Below, piece after piece: positions 25,796 to 32,583 of a stretch of 64,000 nucleotides of DNA. This DNA is from Cytophagales bacterium (GTDB taxonomy: Bacteria > Bacteroidota > Bacteroidia > Cytophagales > Cyclobacteriaceae). Each line of letters starts with the position of its first letter. Within the stretch, counting starts at the first letter, position 1. Position numbers and translations under genes: made by a program. Location of the stretch: the NCBI GenBank assembly GCA_017303795.1, contig JAFLBR010000004.1, forward strand, positions 248,001-312,000, read 5' to 3'. The notes below the pieces were generated by a model. The model saw nothing but the letters and a program-made list of their open reading frames with translations. It was not told the origin of the DNA and did not search any database.

Positions 25796-26272
25796 TTAGC
25801 GTGATTTGTTTTTGATGCGAGTCAGTTCTTGCACATCATACTCGTCTAATAAACCTTTTGGTCCTGCGCGATTAAGATTTTTTTTATTCTCGATTAACAG
25901 GTCAATTCCAATTATTGGAATCCGATCATTTCCAATGGCAAAGAACTGAGAACTCTCGCTGGCTTGACGATAGTTAACGGCAGGTGTAAAAGTCAGGACA
26001 TCTACGGCATTAGGTTCAAAGCCAAAGGCAAGAAATAAAGGCTTTTCAAATTCTTCCGGTTGCAAATCACCATTGTCTAATCCGAGTTCTTGAAACGAGT
26101 TCAACAATCGCTGCCCGTTTTCTCTTGAGGGCTCAATTAACAAATCAAGATCACCCGTACCTCGACTCACACCGTAATAAATGGCAGCAAAACCTCCAAT
26201 AATTACAAAGTTTACTCCATTTTTCAGGAGTGTGCGAACTAACTTTTCATGGAAGGGGCTAAACAAACTCAT
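25796..26272 (-). CDS. Nucleotidyltransferase-fold protein (AbiEii/DUF6036-like)
   Basis: This 158-residue protein has the pol-beta-type nucleotidyltransferase signature: [14 protein letters not shown], then [11 protein letters not shown] with the metal-binding DxD-type acidic pair. The C-terminal part ([29 protein letters not shown]) resembles antitoxin/toxin-associated NTases. The gene overlaps the preceding small gene by 14 bases. NTases of this kind often act in two-gene toxin-antitoxin modules, but catalysis here is not shown. Confidence 0.8.
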
Positions 26273-26444
26273 TACTTTTTTTTACCTGTACCTTTAGCCC
26301 CTTAAAAGAATAATCAAATCCGGGTTTTTCCATACGTTGCATCCATGTTCTTAAAATGGCAAGACGTTCTTCTGGTTTCAACGACTCAAAATGTTTTTGC
26401 CGTTGCTCTGTGATTTTCTCGGGTGAAGTTCTAACTACCTTCAT
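26259..26444 (-). CDS. Small basic protein paired with a nucleotidyltransferase
   Basis: The 61-residue product, starting MKVVRTSPEKITEQRQKHF, is basic and helical, with SLKPEERLAILRTWMQRM in the middle. It has no named domain. The overlap with the nucleotidyltransferase gene suggests a partner or antitoxin role. The ATG at 26444 is used rather than one five codons upstream. Confidence 0.65.
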   Translation of the reverse strand: MKVVRTSPEKITEQRQKHFESLKPEERLAILRTWMQRMEKPGFDYSFKGLKVQVKKSNEFV

Positions 26445-26550
26445 GCGTACAAGATACAAGGAAAATAATAAATTGAAGTGGTTTTGAATCTGGGTTAGTT
26501 AGCAACCCCTTGTGGAAATTTATCAACCGCAAACATTATCGTTAACAAAC

Positions 26551-26580
26551 AAAAAACCCGGAAGCACTCCGGGTTTTTTA
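26551..26580. terminator. Intrinsic terminator downstream of fadE
   Basis: CCCGGA (26557-26562) and TCCGGG (26568-26573) form a 6-bp GC-rich stem with a 5-base loop, flanked by A6 and T6. It can end the fad operon transcript on the minus strand. Confidence 0.85.
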
Positions 26581-26600
26581 TAACTCCAATCTAAGGTGCG

Positions 26601-26640
26601 GCTCTTCGCTCCTGGGGGATTCTTCGCTGCACTCAGAATG
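26601..26640. repeat. REP-like short repeat overlapping the fadE stop codon
   Basis: GCTCTTCGCTCC is followed by GATTCTTCGCTGCACTCAGA and ATGA. ATTCT and AGAAT can pair around a TTCGCTGCACTC loop. Similar ATTCTTCGCT...CAGAAT tracts are scattered in many Bacteroidota genomes. The fadE stop codon TGA lies inside it. Confidence 0.45.
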
Positions 26641-28432
26641 AATACTCCCCCTTCTCAATTACATGCTTGGCTACTTTGCGTCTAGCGTTTTTTAAATTGT
26701 ACGGTTCCACTTTTGTGAAGCGTTTTAAGCCCATCAACATCAGGCGTTGTTCATCGCCTTCCGCAAAGGAAGTAATAGCACTCTTACCGGCAGATGCAGC
26801 TTTTTCGATTGCATGATGTAAATAGATCAACGCAAGTTCTTTCTCCATCTCACACGCTTGTTCGCCACGCGTGCTGATTAACTTTTCTACCCGCAACAAC
26901 ACCGATTCAGCCACATACCCTTCAATCAGCATATCGGCCAGGTTCATTAAAATCTCCTGCTCTTCGGAAAGCTTCATCATAAATTTCTGCACCGCAGCAC
27001 CACTTACCATCAACCCGGCTTTCTTCAGATTGCGTAATGCTTTCTTTTCTTTGGCAAACAAGGTTGTATCATCATCGCTGCCAAAGTCGGGTATCGACAT
27101 CAATTCTTTTTGCACAGCCATAGCGGGATTCATCAAATCGAGATGACCTTTCATGGCGCGCTTCAACAGCATGTCGATAGTAAGCAACCGGTTAATTTCG
27201 TTGGTGCCTTCAAAGATTCTGTTAATGCGTGCATCGCGATAGGCACGATCCATTGGCCCTTCGGCTGAGAAACCCATACCGCCATAAATCTGCACACCTT
27301 CATCCACGCTGTAATCCAACACTTCCGAACCGTGTACTTTCAGAATCGCGCACTCAATGGCAAACTCTTCCAATGCTTTTAATCTCGCTTGCGCAGAATC
27401 CATACCGGCAGCAATAAAGGCATTATACGCATCGTCAATATTCTGGCTGGCGCGATAGTGGGCCGACTCCGAAGCAAAGATGTGCGCAACCACATCGGCA
27501 ATTTTATGTTGAATGGCACCAAACGATGCTATCGACACTCCAAATTGTTTGCGCTCGGTGGCATACTTGATAGCTTTTGAGATAGCCATCTTACTTCCGC
27601 CAACGGCAGCAACACCAAGTTTAATGCGCCCAACATTCAGAATGTTAACCGCGATCTTAAAACCGTTCTCGCGTTCGCTCAATAGATTTTCAACAGGCAC
27701 TTTACAATCGTTGAAGAAAATCTGGCGCGTGGAGGAACCTTTGATGCCCATCTTCTTTTCTTCTTCATTCATGGTTACACCACCAAACGTTTTCTCAACA
27801 ATGAATGCACTTAGATTTTTATCATTGTCAATTTTGGCGAACACTACATACACATCGGCAAAGCCACCGTTGGTAATCCACATCTTCTGACCGTTGATGA
27901 TATAGTGTTTCTTATCTGCCGAAAGCACGGCTTTCGTTTTGCCCGAGTTGGCATCGCTACCGGAATCAGGTTCAGTTAAACAATACGCAGCTTTCCACTC
28001 GCCCGAAGCAAGTTTGGGAATGTATTTTTTCTTCTGGGCATCATTACCATAATAGAGAATCGGCAACGTGCCAATACCGGTGTGTGCCGAAATAGCCACA
28101 GCAAATGAATGACCCGCACCCAACACTTCGGCTACCAACATAGTGGTGTTGAAGTCCATACCAAAGCCACCGAGTTCTTGCGGAACGGAAGTACCCAGTA
28201 AACCCAACTCACCAGCCTTATCCAATAACTGCGGCATCAACTCTGGATTTTTCATTGAATCAATTTCATCCAATCGCGGATGAATCTCCTGCTTTAAAAA
28301 ATCCTTGCACGTTTGTGCAATCATCTTTTGCTCTTCATTAAAATCTTCCGGAATAAAAACTTCCTGCGCCTGAGTTTCTCTGATCAGGAACTCTCCACCC
28401 TTGATTGCTTTTTTTTGTTCTACTGCATTCAT
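26633..28432 (-). CDS. fadE: Acyl-CoA dehydrogenase FadE
   Basis: FadE performs the first oxidation of fatty acyl-CoA beta-oxidation using FAD. The 599-residue length matches B. subtilis FadE (about 594) and the very-long-chain type with an extra C-terminal domain, rather than 380-residue short-chain enzymes. Signatures are AAYCLTEPDSGSDANS, KMWITNGGFADVYVVFAK, ATERKQFGVSIASFGAIQHKIAD and the catalytic-glutamate block INRIFEGTNEINRL. The C-terminus (GEYSF) runs directly into a repeat that supplies the stop codon. It is the last gene of the fad operon. Confidence 0.94.
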   Translation of the reverse strand: MNAVEQKKAIKGGEFLIRETQAQEVFIPEDFNEEQKMIAQTCKDFLKQEIHPRLDEIDSMKNPELMPQLLDKAGELGLLGTSVPQELGGFGMDFNTTMLVAEVLGAGHSFAVAISAHTGIGTLPILYYGNDAQKKKYIPKLASGEWKAAYCLTEPDSGSDANSGKTKAVLSADKKHYIINGQKMWITNGGFADVYVVFAKIDNDKNLSAFIVEKTFGGVTMNEEEKKMGIKGSSTRQIFFNDCKVPVENLLSERENGFKIAVNILNVGRIKLGVAAVGGSKMAISKAIKYATERKQFGVSIASFGAIQHKIADVVAHIFASESAHYRASQNIDDAYNAFIAAGMDSAQARLKALEEFAIECAILKVHGSEVLDYSVDEGVQIYGGMGFSAEGPMDRAYRDARINRIFEGTNEINRLLTIDMLLKRAMKGHLDLMNPAMAVQKELMSIPDFGSDDDTTLFAKEKKALRNLKKAGLMVSGAAVQKFMMKLSEEQEILMNLADMLIEGYVAESVLLRVEKLISTRGEQACEMEKELALIYLHHAIEKAASAGKSAITSFAEGDEQRLMLMGLKRFTKVEPYNLKNARRKVAKHVIEKGEYSF

Positions 28433-28522
28433 AGTCTTTAGTATTGAGTAAAATAGTCCTGAGTAATAGTTTTTGGAATCACAAAGTCTCAGGACTCAAG
28501 ACTAAGGACTCGCTACTAATTT
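28433..28522. repeat. Imperfect inverted-repeat tract filling the fadA-fadE gap
   Basis: The tract contains AGTCTTTAGT at 28433, AGTCCTGAG at 28455-28463, its perfect complement CTCAGGACT at 28488-28496, and ACTAAGGACT at 28501-28510. It can fold into one hairpin in the fad mRNA. The same words build the repeats that enclose the four-helix-bundle gene 1.2 kb upstream. There is no open reading frame inside. Confidence 0.75.
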
Positions 28523-29698
28523 CTAATTCAACATCTCATAAATCCCTGCCACTCCCTGTCCGCCACCTACACAAGCCGTAACCATTCCATACTTTTTGTT
28601 GCGCCTGCGCAGTTCGTTAAATAATTGTACCGATAAACGTGCACCGGATGAACCCAGCGGATGACCGACTGCTATTGCACCACCATTTACATTCAGCTTT
28701 GTTCTGTCTATGCCCAACTCTTTCACCACAGCTAATGATTGTGCAGCAAATGCTTCATTGAGTTCGAACAGATCAATGTCATCTAACTTCAGTCCGGCAA
28801 TTTTTAATGCTTTAGGAATTGCCGCTACCGGACCAATACCCATAATGCGTGGATCAACACCGGCAGTAGCATAACTTACCATGCGTGCAATAGGTTTTAC
28901 ATTCAGTTGCTTAACCATGCGCTCGCTCATCACCAGAACAAACGCAGCGCCATCCGATGTTTGTGAAGAGTTACCAGCCGTAACACTTCCACCCATCGCG
29001 AAAACGGGTTTTAGTTTTGATAGACCTTCCACGGTTGTATCCGCACGAATGCCTTCATCGGTAGCTACTACAAACTCGCGCGTTTTCTTTTTCATGTTTT
29101 CATCTACGTAAACTTCCTTTACGGTGATGGGCACAACTTCATCTTTAAACTTGCCTTCTTTCCATGCAGCAGCAGCTTTCATGTGGCTCTCGTATGAAAA
29201 CTGATCTTGTTCTTCGCGCGTGATTTTGAATTGCTTTGAAACTTCTTCGGCCGTAAGGCCCATGCTGGTATAGTATGTAGGGTTGTCTTTGGCGATGGTA
29301 TAATTAAGCGCAGTTTTAAAACCCATTACCGGCACCAGCGACATAGACTCGGTGCCACCGGCAATAATGATATCGGCTTGACCTGCTTGTATGCGATGAC
29401 TTGCTATCGCGATGGTTTCCACACCCGATCCGCAATAGCGGTTTACTACCATGCCGGGTGTGTCAAGACCCAAGGCCAGCAGCGCGATCATGCGCCCCAT
29501 CTGCATGCCTTGATCAGCTTCGGGCACTGCGTTACCCACAATCAGGTCGTCCACCATGTTGTTTTCGAGTCCGGGAACGGATTTAACCAAATGCTTAATC
29601 ACATCTGCGGCTAAATCATCGGGCCGTGTAAAACGAAAGCCTCCCTTTTTTGCTTTGCCTACTCCTGTTCTGAATCCTGCTACGATGTATGCGTCCAT
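28523..29698 (-). CDS. fadA: Acetyl-CoA acyltransferase (thiolase) FadA
   Basis: This 391-residue thiolase cleaves 3-ketoacyl-CoA in the last beta-oxidation step. The nucleophilic cysteine is C89 in VNRYCGSGVET. The active-site histidine lies in GGAIAVGHPLGSSGAR, and the second cysteine in VTACVGGGQGVAG. Length equals B. subtilis FadA. The ATG is immediately preceded by repeat-derived ACTAAAGACT, the same ten bases that precede fadE. Confidence 0.96.
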   Translation of the reverse strand: MDAYIVAGFRTGVGKAKKGGFRFTRPDDLAADVIKHLVKSVPGLENNMVDDLIVGNAVPEADQGMQMGRMIALLALGLDTPGMVVNRYCGSGVETIAIASHRIQAGQADIIIAGGTESMSLVPVMGFKTALNYTIAKDNPTYYTSMGLTAEEVSKQFKITREEQDQFSYESHMKAAAAWKEGKFKDEVVPITVKEVYVDENMKKKTREFVVATDEGIRADTTVEGLSKLKPVFAMGGSVTAGNSSQTSDGAAFVLVMSERMVKQLNVKPIARMVSYATAGVDPRIMGIGPVAAIPKALKIAGLKLDDIDLFELNEAFAAQSLAVVKELGIDRTKLNVNGGAIAVGHPLGSSGARLSVQLFNELRRRNKKYGMVTACVGGGQGVAGIYEMLN

Positions 29699-29712
29699 AG
29701 TCTTTAGTAGTT

Positions 29713-29735
29713 AGTAAATAGTCCTTAGTCTTGAG
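29713..29735 (+). repeat. Terminal inverted repeat, fadA side, of the four-helix-bundle cassette
   Basis: The 23-bp arm begins AGTAAATAGTCC and ends AGTCTTGAG. It is the exact reverse complement of 30135-30157. Related words (AGTCTTTAGT at 29699 and 29741) extend the similarity on both sides. The downstream copy forms the stop codon region of the enclosed gene. Confidence 0.9.
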
Positions 29736-29738
29736 TAA

Positions 29739-30101
29739 TTAGTCTTTAGTAAGATTTAGTGATCGTTTTAAAGACCAGTTCATTTTTTGAATTTCAGTAA
29801 TATCTGATTGAAGTGATTCGAGAGCTGATGAATCAATAAAATTTATTCGTTGTGCAATGATCAATTGAGTATCAAGTTCACAAATAGACCCATTGGAGAT
29901 GCCTAAAAAATTATTAAAATCTTTTTTGGTATTTCGTCCTGCCCCCTCTGCAATATTTGAAGGTACCGAAACGGCACATCGCCTTAATTGAGAGGTCAAT
30001 CCATATAACTCCTCCTTAGGAAAGGCATTAGTTGCTCCGTAAATCCTTACAGCCAAGTCCACTGACTTTTGCCAAACTTTAAGTTCTTTATAATTATTCA
30101 T
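29739..30101 (-). CDS. Four-helix-bundle (23S rRNA intervening-sequence, S23-type) protein
   Basis: The 120-residue protein matches the S23/IVP family first found in the intervening sequences of Leptospira 23S rRNA. It starts NNYKELKVWQKSVDLAVRIYG and carries the hallmark SVPSNIAEGAGRNTKKDFNNFL, followed by GSICELDTQLIIAQR. The family is related to the Avd accessory proteins of diversity-generating retroelements, and its molecular role is unclear. The length is normal and the frame intact. The ATG at 30101 is chosen over a TTG three codons upstream. It interrupts the fadN-fadA gap and is enclosed by perfect inverted repeats. Confidence 0.93.
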   Translation of the reverse strand: MNNYKELKVWQKSVDLAVRIYGATNAFPKEELYGLTSQLRRCAVSVPSNIAEGAGRNTKKDFNNFLGISNGSICELDTQLIIAQRINFIDSSALESLQSDITEIQKMNWSLKRSLNLTKD

Positions 30102-30134
30102 CAGGTTCAATTTTTTTAGTTACACAACTAAATG

Positions 30135-30157
30135 CTCAAGACTAAGGACTATTTACT
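30135..30157 (-). repeat. Terminal inverted repeat, fadN side, of the four-helix-bundle cassette
   Basis: This is the exact 23-bp complement of 29713-29735, lying 34 bases upstream of the enclosed gene's ATG. A second, degenerate copy (CTCAGGACTAAGGACTAACC) adjoins it at about 30156-30175. The tract reaches the fadN stop codon at 30184. Confidence 0.9.
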
Positions 30158-30183
30158 CAGGACTAAGGACTAACCACTCAATA

Positions 30184-32583
30184 CTAATTTCTAAGAGGTT
30201 TCCCCCCTGTCAAAATAGATTGAATTCGCTCCAGTGTTTTCTTCTCTCCCGTCAATGACAAAAATGCTTCGCGCTCTAAATCCAATAAGTATTGTTCTGT
30301 TACTTCTTGTGGTGATGTTAAATCTCCGCCACACATTACATTGGCAATCCACTTAGCAATTTTTGCATCGTGCTCACTAATGTAGCGGCCCATCTTCATG
30401 CCTTGTAATCCCGCAAGGAATAACGCCTGACCGGTGCGGCCCTGCACTTTAATATTCTTTGCTTGTTGCGGCATAGAGTAACCCGCTTCCACTAAGTCAA
30501 GCACCGCTTGTTTGGCATCAGCAATCTGGCGGTCTTTATTCATGCTTACGCGATCGAGTTTTTTAAGAATGCCCAACTCGCGAGCTTCTTCGGCTGAGGT
30601 TGCCACTTTTGCTGTCGCGATAGTCATAAATGCATTTTGTAATGCATTTAGTTCTACATCGCCTTCTTGTAGTGAATCGCTTACGCGCTTAGCAAATTCT
30701 TTTGTGCCACCACCACCCGGAATCAGACCTACACCAACTTCCACCAAACCAATATAAGTTTCAGCAGCAGCTTGCGCGATGTCGGCATGCATAGTCATTT
30801 CGCAACCACCGCCCAACGTGCGGCCTTGCGGAGCAACCACAACCGGAATCGAGGAATAACGCAAGCGCATCACCGAATTCTGGAACGCGCGAATCATAAA
30901 ATCGATCTCATCATAATCCTGTTCGATGGCATACATAAACACCAGACCCAGGTTCGCGCCCAGCGAGAAGTCGGGACCTTGATGGCCAACTACCAAGCCT
31001 TTGTAATCTTTCTCGGCCAGATCAATGGCTTTATTCATGCCTTCAATTACACTGCTGCCGAGCGTATAACTCTTAGAGCTCCACGAGAAGTTGAGTACGC
31101 CATCGCCAATGTCAGTAACTTTTGAGTCGGCATTTTTCCAAACCACGCTGTCGCTCTTACTTTCCAGAATAATAAAGCTTTCGCGACCCGGAATGGATTT
31201 GTATGACTTAGAAGGAATGTCGTAATACTTTTTGGTGCCACCTTCGGTTTTGTAAAATGATTTATTGCCCGCAGTGAGCATATCGTACACCCATTGATTG
31301 GGTTTGTAACCTGCGGCTTCCATTTGGGCAATACTTTTTTCAACACCCACAGCATCCCATGTTTCGAACGGGCCAAAATCCCAACCAAAGCCACCGCTTA
31401 CGGCATCATCAATACGGAAAAGTTCATCGCTGATTTCAGGAATGCGATTGCTCACATACTTGAACAAATCGAAAAACATATCGCGATAAAAATCACCGGC
31501 TTTGTCTTTACCGGCCAGCAACACTTTAAAGCGATCGCGCAGATTGTCGATAGTTTTGGTGGTTTCGAGGGTAGCAAACTTTGCTTTTGCTTTGGGCTGA
31601 TACTCGAATGTTTTAAGATCGAGTGTAAGAATTTCTGTTTCGCCTTTGGCGTTTTTAGATTTCTTATAAAAACCCTGACCGGTTTTATCGCCCAACCATT
31701 TATTCTGCTCCAGTTTACTAACCGCTTCGGGTAACTTAAACATTTCGCGGCCTTCATCATTAGGCAAGCCTGCATACAGGTTGTTGGCAACTTTTACCAA
31801 GGTATCCAAACCCACAACATCCGAAGTACGGAACGTAGCAGACTTGGGTCTGCCAATTACCGGGCCGGTAAGCTTATCGATCTCATCTACGTTAAGATCA
31901 AATTTCTGCATCGAGTCAATCACTTTCAATAAACCCCAAACACCAACGCGATTGCCAATGAAAGCCGGAGTGTCTTTACATAACACCGTTGTTTTGCCCA
32001 GGAACAAATCGCCATAGTGCAATAAGAACTTGGTTATTTCCGGATCGGTCTTGGCAGTAGGAATAATTTCCAACAGTTTCAAATACCGTGGCGGATTAAA
32101 GAAGTGTGTGCCGGCAAAGTGTTTTTGAAAATCTTCGCTTCTTCCTTCGGCCATTAAGTGAATAGGAATACCCGAAGTATTAGAGGTGATGAGTGTGCCC
32201 GGAGTGCGATGCTTCTCTACTTCATCGTACACTTTCTTTTTGATGTCGAGGTTTTCAACCACTACTTCAATTGTCCAGTCGTAGTGTTTGATCTTAGGCA
32301 TATCATCGGTAAAGTTTCCGAGCGTAACGCGCGAAGCAAACTTTTTACTGAAGAGCGCAGCCGGGTTTGCTTTAAGCGTTGCTTCGAAGGCAGTGTTCAC
32401 AATTCTGTTTTTCACAGCGGGATGATCGAGCGCGAGGCCCTTTTTCTTTTCATCTTCGGTAAGTTCGCGCGGTGCAATGTCGAGCAGCAACACCTGCACA
32501 CCAATGTTGGCGAAGTGGCACGCAATACGCGAGCCCATAATACCGGAACCTAAAATGGCAACTTTGCGGATGGGTCTATTCAT
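30184..32583 (-). CDS. fadN: Bifunctional 3-hydroxyacyl-CoA dehydrogenase/enoyl-CoA hydratase FadN
   Basis: This 799-residue enzyme catalyses the two middle steps of beta-oxidation. The NAD-binding motif VAILGSGIMGSRIACHFA is N-terminal, with FFNPPRYLKLLEI in the dehydrogenase active-site region. The hydratase domain follows (about 480-680): GHQGPDFSLGANLGL, the oxyanion segment GRTLGGGCEMTMHAD, and GLVEVGVGLIPGGGGTKE with the catalytic glutamate. The order dehydrogenase-then-hydratase is that of B. subtilis FadN, the reverse of E. coli FadB. It follows marR by 28 bp. Confidence 0.94.
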   Translation of the reverse strand: MNRPIRKVAILGSGIMGSRIACHFANIGVQVLLLDIAPRELTEDEKKKGLALDHPAVKNRIVNTAFEATLKANPAALFSKKFASRVTLGNFTDDMPKIKHYDWTIEVVVENLDIKKKVYDEVEKHRTPGTLITSNTSGIPIHLMAEGRSEDFQKHFAGTHFFNPPRYLKLLEIIPTAKTDPEITKFLLHYGDLFLGKTTVLCKDTPAFIGNRVGVWGLLKVIDSMQKFDLNVDEIDKLTGPVIGRPKSATFRTSDVVGLDTLVKVANNLYAGLPNDEGREMFKLPEAVSKLEQNKWLGDKTGQGFYKKSKNAKGETEILTLDLKTFEYQPKAKAKFATLETTKTIDNLRDRFKVLLAGKDKAGDFYRDMFFDLFKYVSNRIPEISDELFRIDDAVSGGFGWDFGPFETWDAVGVEKSIAQMEAAGYKPNQWVYDMLTAGNKSFYKTEGGTKKYYDIPSKSYKSIPGRESFIILESKSDSVVWKNADSKVTDIGDGVLNFSWSSKSYTLGSSVIEGMNKAIDLAEKDYKGLVVGHQGPDFSLGANLGLVFMYAIEQDYDEIDFMIRAFQNSVMRLRYSSIPVVVAPQGRTLGGGCEMTMHADIAQAAAETYIGLVEVGVGLIPGGGGTKEFAKRVSDSLQEGDVELNALQNAFMTIATAKVATSAEEARELGILKKLDRVSMNKDRQIADAKQAVLDLVEAGYSMPQQAKNIKVQGRTGQALFLAGLQGMKMGRYISEHDAKIAKWIANVMCGGDLTSPQEVTEQYLLDLEREAFLSLTGEKKTLERIQSILTGGKPLRN

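Follow-up and report, generated by a model that had tools for sequence, protein, structure and literature searches.

The intervening sequence (IVS) of Coxiella rRNA is a 444-nt element with a 28-bp stem and a sense reading frame for an S23 protein, and tandem GACAGAT heptamers lie ahead of this frame (PMC4990558). RNase III cleaves the element in vitro, at a site that the authors position at the first heptamer repeat (PMC4990558). Heptamers before one rRNA-IVS S23 frame, that of Coxiella, are already in print (PMC4990558). According to the same paper, the function of S23 proteins is not known, and a Xanthomonas S23 protein is described there as a homopentamer (PMC4990558). The PDB entries of two relatives, 2GSC and 2RLD, contain five chains apiece. 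In a fish-pathogen genome, a four-helix-bundle gene lies between the guanylate kinase and nicotinate-mononucleotide adenylyltransferase genes and is listed as belonging to a phage region (PMC5524665).

Two further systems combine small repeats with intergenic positions. RAYT genes adjoin their own class of REP, and REPs occur mostly as inverted pairs (PMC3116915). Heptamer arrays such as TAACTGA occupy spacers of Bacteroidetes, Beggiatoaceae, and Cyanobacteria, often at start or stop codons, and the spacers of relatives are shorter and lack the arrays (PMC4679880). The available text of that paper contains none of the terms "S23", "four helix", and "intervening", and the arrays it describes are direct repeats (PMC4679880), whereas those that flank S23 genes are inverted pairs. 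Searches of an open-access library brought up no paper recognised as an account of S23-heptad cassettes in operons.

The window analysed here is a stretch of 64,000 nucleotides from a Cytophagales bacterium. Open reading frames and profile matches identify a minus-strand operon composed of a fadN-like 3-hydroxyacyl-CoA dehydrogenase/enoyl-CoA hydratase gene (30184-32583), a fadA-like thiolase gene (28523-29698), and a fadE-like acyl-CoA dehydrogenase gene (26633-28432). Its FadA is closest, among the named loci, to those of two Flammeovirgaceae assemblies (91 and 90%) and of one from Cyclobacteriaceae (89%). Between fadN and fadA, on the same strand, is an S23 (23S_rRNA_IVP) four-helix-bundle gene of 120 aa (29739-30101). 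Its frame is intact from the ATG at 30101 to the end of the stop codon at 29739, and an alternative upstream TTG start would give 123 aa. The match to Pfam PF05635 (E 1e-40; 138.6 bits against a cut-off of 33.8) makes it a member of that family, and NCBIfam NF008911 and TIGR02436 both score above cut-off. These matches and the reading frame confirm the intact S23-family gene that an initial annotation, made from the sequence alone, had placed here. Only IVP/Avd-type families matched in the Pfam and NCBIfam scans, with no match to a transposase or nuclease family. The similarity to the Avd proteins of DGRs is weak (bAvd 20.0 bits and NF033474 24.7 bits, with cut-offs of 40 and 80), and none of the five genes scanned around the cassette (25796-32583) is a reverse transcriptase. 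An Rfam scan of the window gave no match.

The S23 gene is enclosed by two arms, which are degenerate 7-bp tandem arrays and extend to the stop codon of fadN on one side and the start codon of fadA on the other. Named by the S23 sense, the 5' arm is a TTAGTCC-like array at 30127-30172 that can be followed to 30186 and begins in the fadN stop codon; in register it reads AAATTAG TATTGAG TGGTTAG TCCTTAG TCCTGAG TAAATAG TCCTTAG TCTTGAG. The 3' arm (29698-29743) is the inverted array, ending in GACTAAG GACTATT TACTAAC TACTAAA GACTATG, and its last unit holds the fadA start codon. Reading of the sequence shows that the exact 23-bp repeats reported earlier, at 30135-30157 in the 5' arm and 29713-29735 in the 3' arm, are reverse complements. 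Imperfect similarity, previously put at about 39 bp, reaches beyond them; the extended arms are 46 nt each and 87% complementary. In the predicted RNA fold of 29690-30192, the exact repeats pair into a 23-bp stem that closes off the S23 frame (z -5.15), and 0 of 100 shuffles folded as well. The next junction, fadA|fadE, is filled from stop codon to start codon by an S23-less hairpin of the same heptad as the S23 arms (28433-28522), which lies above the 99th percentile of shuffles. Among relatives, TGA stop codons go with TTGACA-type units (L028, L033) and TAG stop codons with TTAGT-type units (L025, L027).

The window cassette, consisting of the 5' heptad arm, the S23 gene, and the inverted 3' arm, shares several features with rRNA intervening sequences. 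Its S23 frame is in sense orientation, on the strand of fadN and fadA, and its inverted ends form a long stem (23 bp as predicted here, 28 bp in Coxiella; PMC4990558). Tandem heptamers precede the S23 frame, as they do in Coxiella, and the operon cassette is sporadic at a conserved site among relatives, as rRNA IVSs are (PMC4990558). Unlike an rRNA IVS, it lies between mRNA cistrons and outside any 16S or 23S rRNA gene or helix. Operon S23 frames are also conserved (dN/dS about 0.1), in contrast to that of Coxiella, for which decay is described. RNase III cuts the Coxiella IVS in vitro (PMC4990558) and may cut the operon cassette. The initial annotation had suggested an IVS-like element in an mRNA. 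That suggestion is supported in part: the sense frame, inverted arms, long predicted stem, and sporadic presence agree with it, but the cassette does not lie in an rRNA gene and for this reason is not filed as a classical IVS.

We give an about even chance to the reading that the cassette is related to the rRNA intervening sequence but resides in operons, and that its arms form a cleavable stem. Cassettes occupy intercistronic junctions, in bacteria mostly in sense, so that the host promoter could supply the S23 message. The arms would pair in the polycistronic RNA into a stem, of 23 bp in the window, whose loop contains the S23 frame. RNase III may then cut this stem, which would release the S23 piece and separate the fadN mRNA from the fadA mRNA; such separation would be tolerated because both cistrons are complete. 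We infer for the operon cassette the fate of the Coxiella IVS, because both are assembled from matching parts in one order and because the cassette's arms are predicted to pair better with their own partners than with arms from elsewhere. S23-less heptad hairpins would be the same element minus its gene, either decayed or non-autonomous. The S23 protein, kept by selection, presumably aids persistence or spread of the cassette by binding its own arms. It probably serves the element rather than the operon, since its presence is sporadic and its types interchange. If this reading is true, core metabolic operons of many bacteria have a built-in cleavage point between cistrons.

Inverted heptad arms are a general feature of S23 genes. 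In named genomes, lag-7 self-similarity of at least 16/24 was found in 59 upstream and 57 downstream flanks of 95 S23 genes, compared with 6 of 190 random windows, and lags besides 7, 14, and 21 gave at most 6. Loci with identical DNA or protein, flanks under 100 bases, or cores under 240 bases were left out before inversion was counted. Inverted arms reaching a score of 14 were then present at 113 of 167 S23 genes, compared with 5.3% when flanks were swapped between loci. Where both flanks are heptad arrays (n = 88), inverted similarity exceeds direct similarity in 79 cases and direct exceeds inverted in 8, with one tie. Among 30 distant S23 genes sampled afresh, inversion recurs in 25 (direct in 7; swapped 22%). 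Ten cyanobacterial plasmids were fetched from 32 records with an S23 match, and inverted arms flank 7 of their 10 S23 genes versus 13 of 90 swapped pairs; the swapped-flank background is not uniform across the three sets (5%, 14%, and 22%). The plasmid units include GGGAACA and AGGGAGT, with 8-bp units in two loci. One plasmid locus (L372) has direct rather than inverted arrays, which counts against the operon-IVS reading. Viral contigs (L194-L217) have lag-7 similarity in 15 of 21 and 8 of 21 flanks, compared with 5 of 42 controls.

The heptad sequence itself differs among lineages and includes AGTCCTT, AGATTTG, AGTATTA, AGTACCA, AGACACA, and AGGCAGT. Polarity is more constant: AG exceeds CT in 5' arrays by 85:7 (7 ties), and CT exceeds AG in 3' arrays by 77:7 (1 tie). 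Over whole flanks of the fresh 30-gene set, the ratios are 27:3 and 21:8. Across many Bacteroidota and cyanobacterial plasmids, period, inversion, and polarity mostly persist while the heptad sequence changes between lineages. The predicted arm-arm RNA duplex has a median of -41.6 for own partners versus -29.9 for swapped ones, and own partners are lower in 132 of 167 cases. No compensatory double changes occur in 13 arm pairs of a Flavobacterium set, which counts against the operon-IVS reading. At five distant S23 loci (L347, L348, L349, L350, and L357), units of 6 and 7 bases appear by eye to take turns, with CAG kept constant.

S23 genes of PF05635 were found in 171 of the 196 family genomes searched. 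Of 192 S23 genes, 74 are at fadN|fadA, 45 at fadA|fadE, and 73 elsewhere, in a set biased by the deliberate fetching of fad loci. In the named set, fetched by S23 similarity alone, S23 is at a fad junction in 37 of 76 usable loci, 76 of 80 having been kept after removal of frames that scored below 90 bits or covered fewer than 90 profile positions. Junctions checked by NCBIfam in example loci include odhB|lpd (L055), sdhA|sdhB (L122), rpoB|rpoC (L141), atpD|atpC (L162), nrdB|nrdA (L163), and rnfG|rnfE (L176). Two more lie between the two subunits of methylmalonyl-CoA mutase (L191) and between citramalate/isopropylmalate synthase and leuB (L170). N-terminal reading alone adds ten odhB|lpd-like loci and two sdhA|sdhB-like loci (L144, L146). 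In cyanobacterial plasmids, sense S23 genes are found by annotation at cas6|cas4 twice and at cas10|cmr3 (L368, L372, L376), and an annotated plasmid has an antisense S23 at an nrdB|nrdA junction.

Bacterial S23 genes are co-oriented with both neighbours in 158 of 172 cases; 9 more have one neighbour missing, and 5 differ. In the fad survey, all 57 of 57 share the sense of fad. Viral S23 genes have heptad flanks and mostly stand opposite to their neighbours, with only 5 of 20 co-oriented with both, and 3 of the 10 cyanobacterial plasmid cassettes (L369, L370, L371) are antisense to both neighbours. Both sets count against the operon-IVS reading. Antisense and viral cassettes fit more readily with a DNA-level parallel to RAYT/REPIN, by which heptad hairpins would be extragenic palindromes that move at the DNA level. 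An S23 gene between two inverted arrays would then be the autonomous form, its non-autonomous offspring would be the hairpins that lack S23, and RNA cutting would be incidental.

The genome of the window supplies further points for this parallel, which we nonetheless consider unlikely. The exact 12-mer GACTAAGGACTA occurs 30 times in the genome, compared with 0 for the backwards-read pattern. Enrichment is confined to the exact 12-mer; a TTAGTCC-type 13-mer with up to two mismatches is at background level (226 versus 259). Around the GACTAAGGACTA sites are seven inverted pairs, all with the polarity of the cassette, which enclose none of the four S23 genes of the genome (the window copy included). 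The arm 12-mer is ruled out as a marker of S23 genes, since there are only four such genes and most arrays are elsewhere. The search for the arm repeat together with S23 genes proposed in the initial annotation thus had a mixed outcome, in that the repeat has further copies in the genome, most of which have no S23 gene with them, and S23 genes elsewhere share the arm design but not the arm sequence. The other three S23 genes of this genome (L002, L003, and L004, on contigs 8 and 7) are flanked by GGTCGAT-, GGTTACC-, and GATTAGT-like heptads. GGTTACC arrays are present at 24 genome sites and 0 in the control, while GATTAGT was rejected as a genome-wide repeat (38 matches versus 45 in the control). 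A long TAATTAG tandem array with TGATTAC-like units on both sides is located at G000:C12:250816-250990.

The resemblance to REPINs is one of arrangement: an S23 gene sits beside inverted repeats, gene-less hairpins of the same repeat are dispersed in spacers, and RAYT genes likewise adjoin their own, mostly inverted, REPs (PMC3116915). The window's fadA|fadE hairpin, with its likeness to the S23 arms at fadN|fadA, belongs to the same picture. The differences lie in the protein and the repeat. S23 is a four-helix bundle that, in the Pfam and NCBIfam scans, matched neither a nuclease nor a transposase family and is not a REP-associated tyrosine transposase, and its repeats are 7-bp tandem arrays of fast-changing sequence, unlike REPs or REPINs. 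The strong co-orientation of bacterial cassettes with their operons also speaks against movement as DNA palindromes. Finally, agreement between heptad sequence and S23 type is confined to short range. A fixed correspondence of the two held in 12 of 12 cases versus 4 of 180 for a motif chosen post hoc but in only 6 of 30 fresh loci, so that no more than a short-range link is retained; the fresh-locus result also counts against the operon-IVS reading.

The cassette could also be a host-useful regulator. S23 and its heptad stems would then adjust how core polycistronic mRNAs are processed, how stable they are, or in what stoichiometry they occur, and would be retained for doing so. Ninety fad loci were surveyed, namely the 30 closest and a further 60 selected, in most cases one from each genus, out of 180 genomes in which FadA was matched; the fadN|fadA junction was measurable in 85 and the fadA|fadE junction in 76. 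S23 is at fadN|fadA in 31 of the 90, at fadA|fadE in 26, and at both in 11, while 44 have S23 at neither (unmeasured junctions included). The measured S23-less junctions are shorter than 55 bp in 29 of 55 cases at fadN|fadA and 19 of 49 at fadA|fadE. Of the remainder, 16 of 26 at fadN|fadA and 11 of 30 at fadA|fadE contain a hairpin that exceeds the 99th percentile of shuffles. Where one fad junction of a locus has an S23-less hairpin and the other an S23 gene, the hairpin is similar to the arms of that gene (mean 18.3, cross-locus 12.9; rank 1 in 7 of 17). S23 presence is sporadic at conserved fad junctions among relatives. The empty sites that the initial annotation had proposed looking for at fadN-fadA do exist, and empty, hairpin-only, and filled states all occur.

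The same alternation is seen within the genus of the window, where 23 loci were examined and 22 cover the fadN|fadA junction. The S23 type of the window, with TTAGTCC/TTGAGTC arms, is carried by 4 of these 22. A second type, 25-27% identical in examples and with GGCAGTA or TTGACAN arms, is found in 6, a third type in 2, and no S23 in 10. By eye, four of the ten S23-less junctions are heptad hairpins (L030, L034, L036, L045), four are plain, and two (L032, L035) resemble arm remnants.

The S23 frame is under purifying selection, and its protein is used. Median dN/dS is 0.10-0.13 in four groups, with dS computable for only 4 of 15, 32 of 36, 8 of 21, and 2 of 36 pairs, and pN/pS is 0.22-0.25. 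On a FastTree phylogeny of 192 S23 proteins (123 columns, many unresolved forks), the junction label changes 31 times compared with 87.5 after shuffling, so that much inheritance is vertical and junctions keep their lineages for some time; this counts against the operon-IVS reading. However, S23 distance correlates with FadA distance at only 0.175 across 115 fad-junction genes. Pairs with FadA less than 12% different have S23 more than 50% different in 29 of 125 cases at fadN|fadA and 47 of 118 at fadA|fadE. Similarity between arms is tied more closely to S23 distance (partial r 0.32) than to FadA distance (0.09). The cassette appears to have been replaced or moved more often than its host operon. 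The alternation of junction states, together with unlike S23 among relatives with like FadA, weakens the idea that S23 is a plain ancestral operon gene.

Purifying selection, the recurrent position between subunits of one enzyme or pathway, and the clustering of junction labels on the S23 tree are what a host-useful regulator would lead one to expect. The finding of S23 at fadN|fadA in only 31 and at fadA|fadE in only 26 of the 90 family loci, the presence of different S23 types or none at one junction within one genus, and the 29 of 125 close FadA pairs with unlike S23 make this explanation a doubtful one.

A broader extension of the operon-resident IVS reading, which we regard as speculative and unlikely, is that S23 genes mark minimal mobile elements that cross phyla. 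Each element would be a four-helix-bundle gene between inverted 7-bp arrays that spreads through operon junctions. Spacer heptamers of Bacteroidota and cyanobacteria would derive from it as arms and relics, with the rRNA IVS as a special case that landed in rRNA. Cyanobacterial STRR are heptamer arrays of the same sort. Templated extension in steps of one repeat, primed by sequence at the site such as a stop codon, would generate the arrays and would explain their constant period, changing sequence, and fixed polarity, as well as arrays that start inside a stop codon. If S23 proteins belong to heptad-hairpin cassettes, the origin of rRNA IVSs and the source of bacterial heptamers become one testable question.

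Heptads are common in S23 neighbourhoods and commoner still beside S23. Within the same loci, 85 of 126 S23-adjacent spacers bear an array versus 28 of the 82 remaining spacers. Five genomes, sampled in pieces, gave counts of 18/178 (the genome of the window), 1/96, 4/81, 5/103, and 3/85, of which 1/96 and 4/81 are from two genomes without PF05635 hits. One genome without a PF05635 hit (G068) nonetheless has heptad arrays, which counts against the operon-IVS reading. It is very improbable that replication-slippage heptamer arrays, a known feature of bacterial spacers (PMC4679880) that also occurs here without S23, merely coincide with a small gene tolerated among them, given the excess of arrays in S23-adjacent spacers over the five genomes, the excess of inversion over swapped flanks, and a polarity at S23 genes that generic arrays lack. 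In generic arrays, polarity is 11:13 for co-directional, 4:2 for convergent, and 1:1 for divergent spacers in a test that mixes single arrays and hairpins, so that polarity is not upheld as a property of every heptad array. Avoidance of G before start codons is a possible alternative cause of the polarity at S23 genes.
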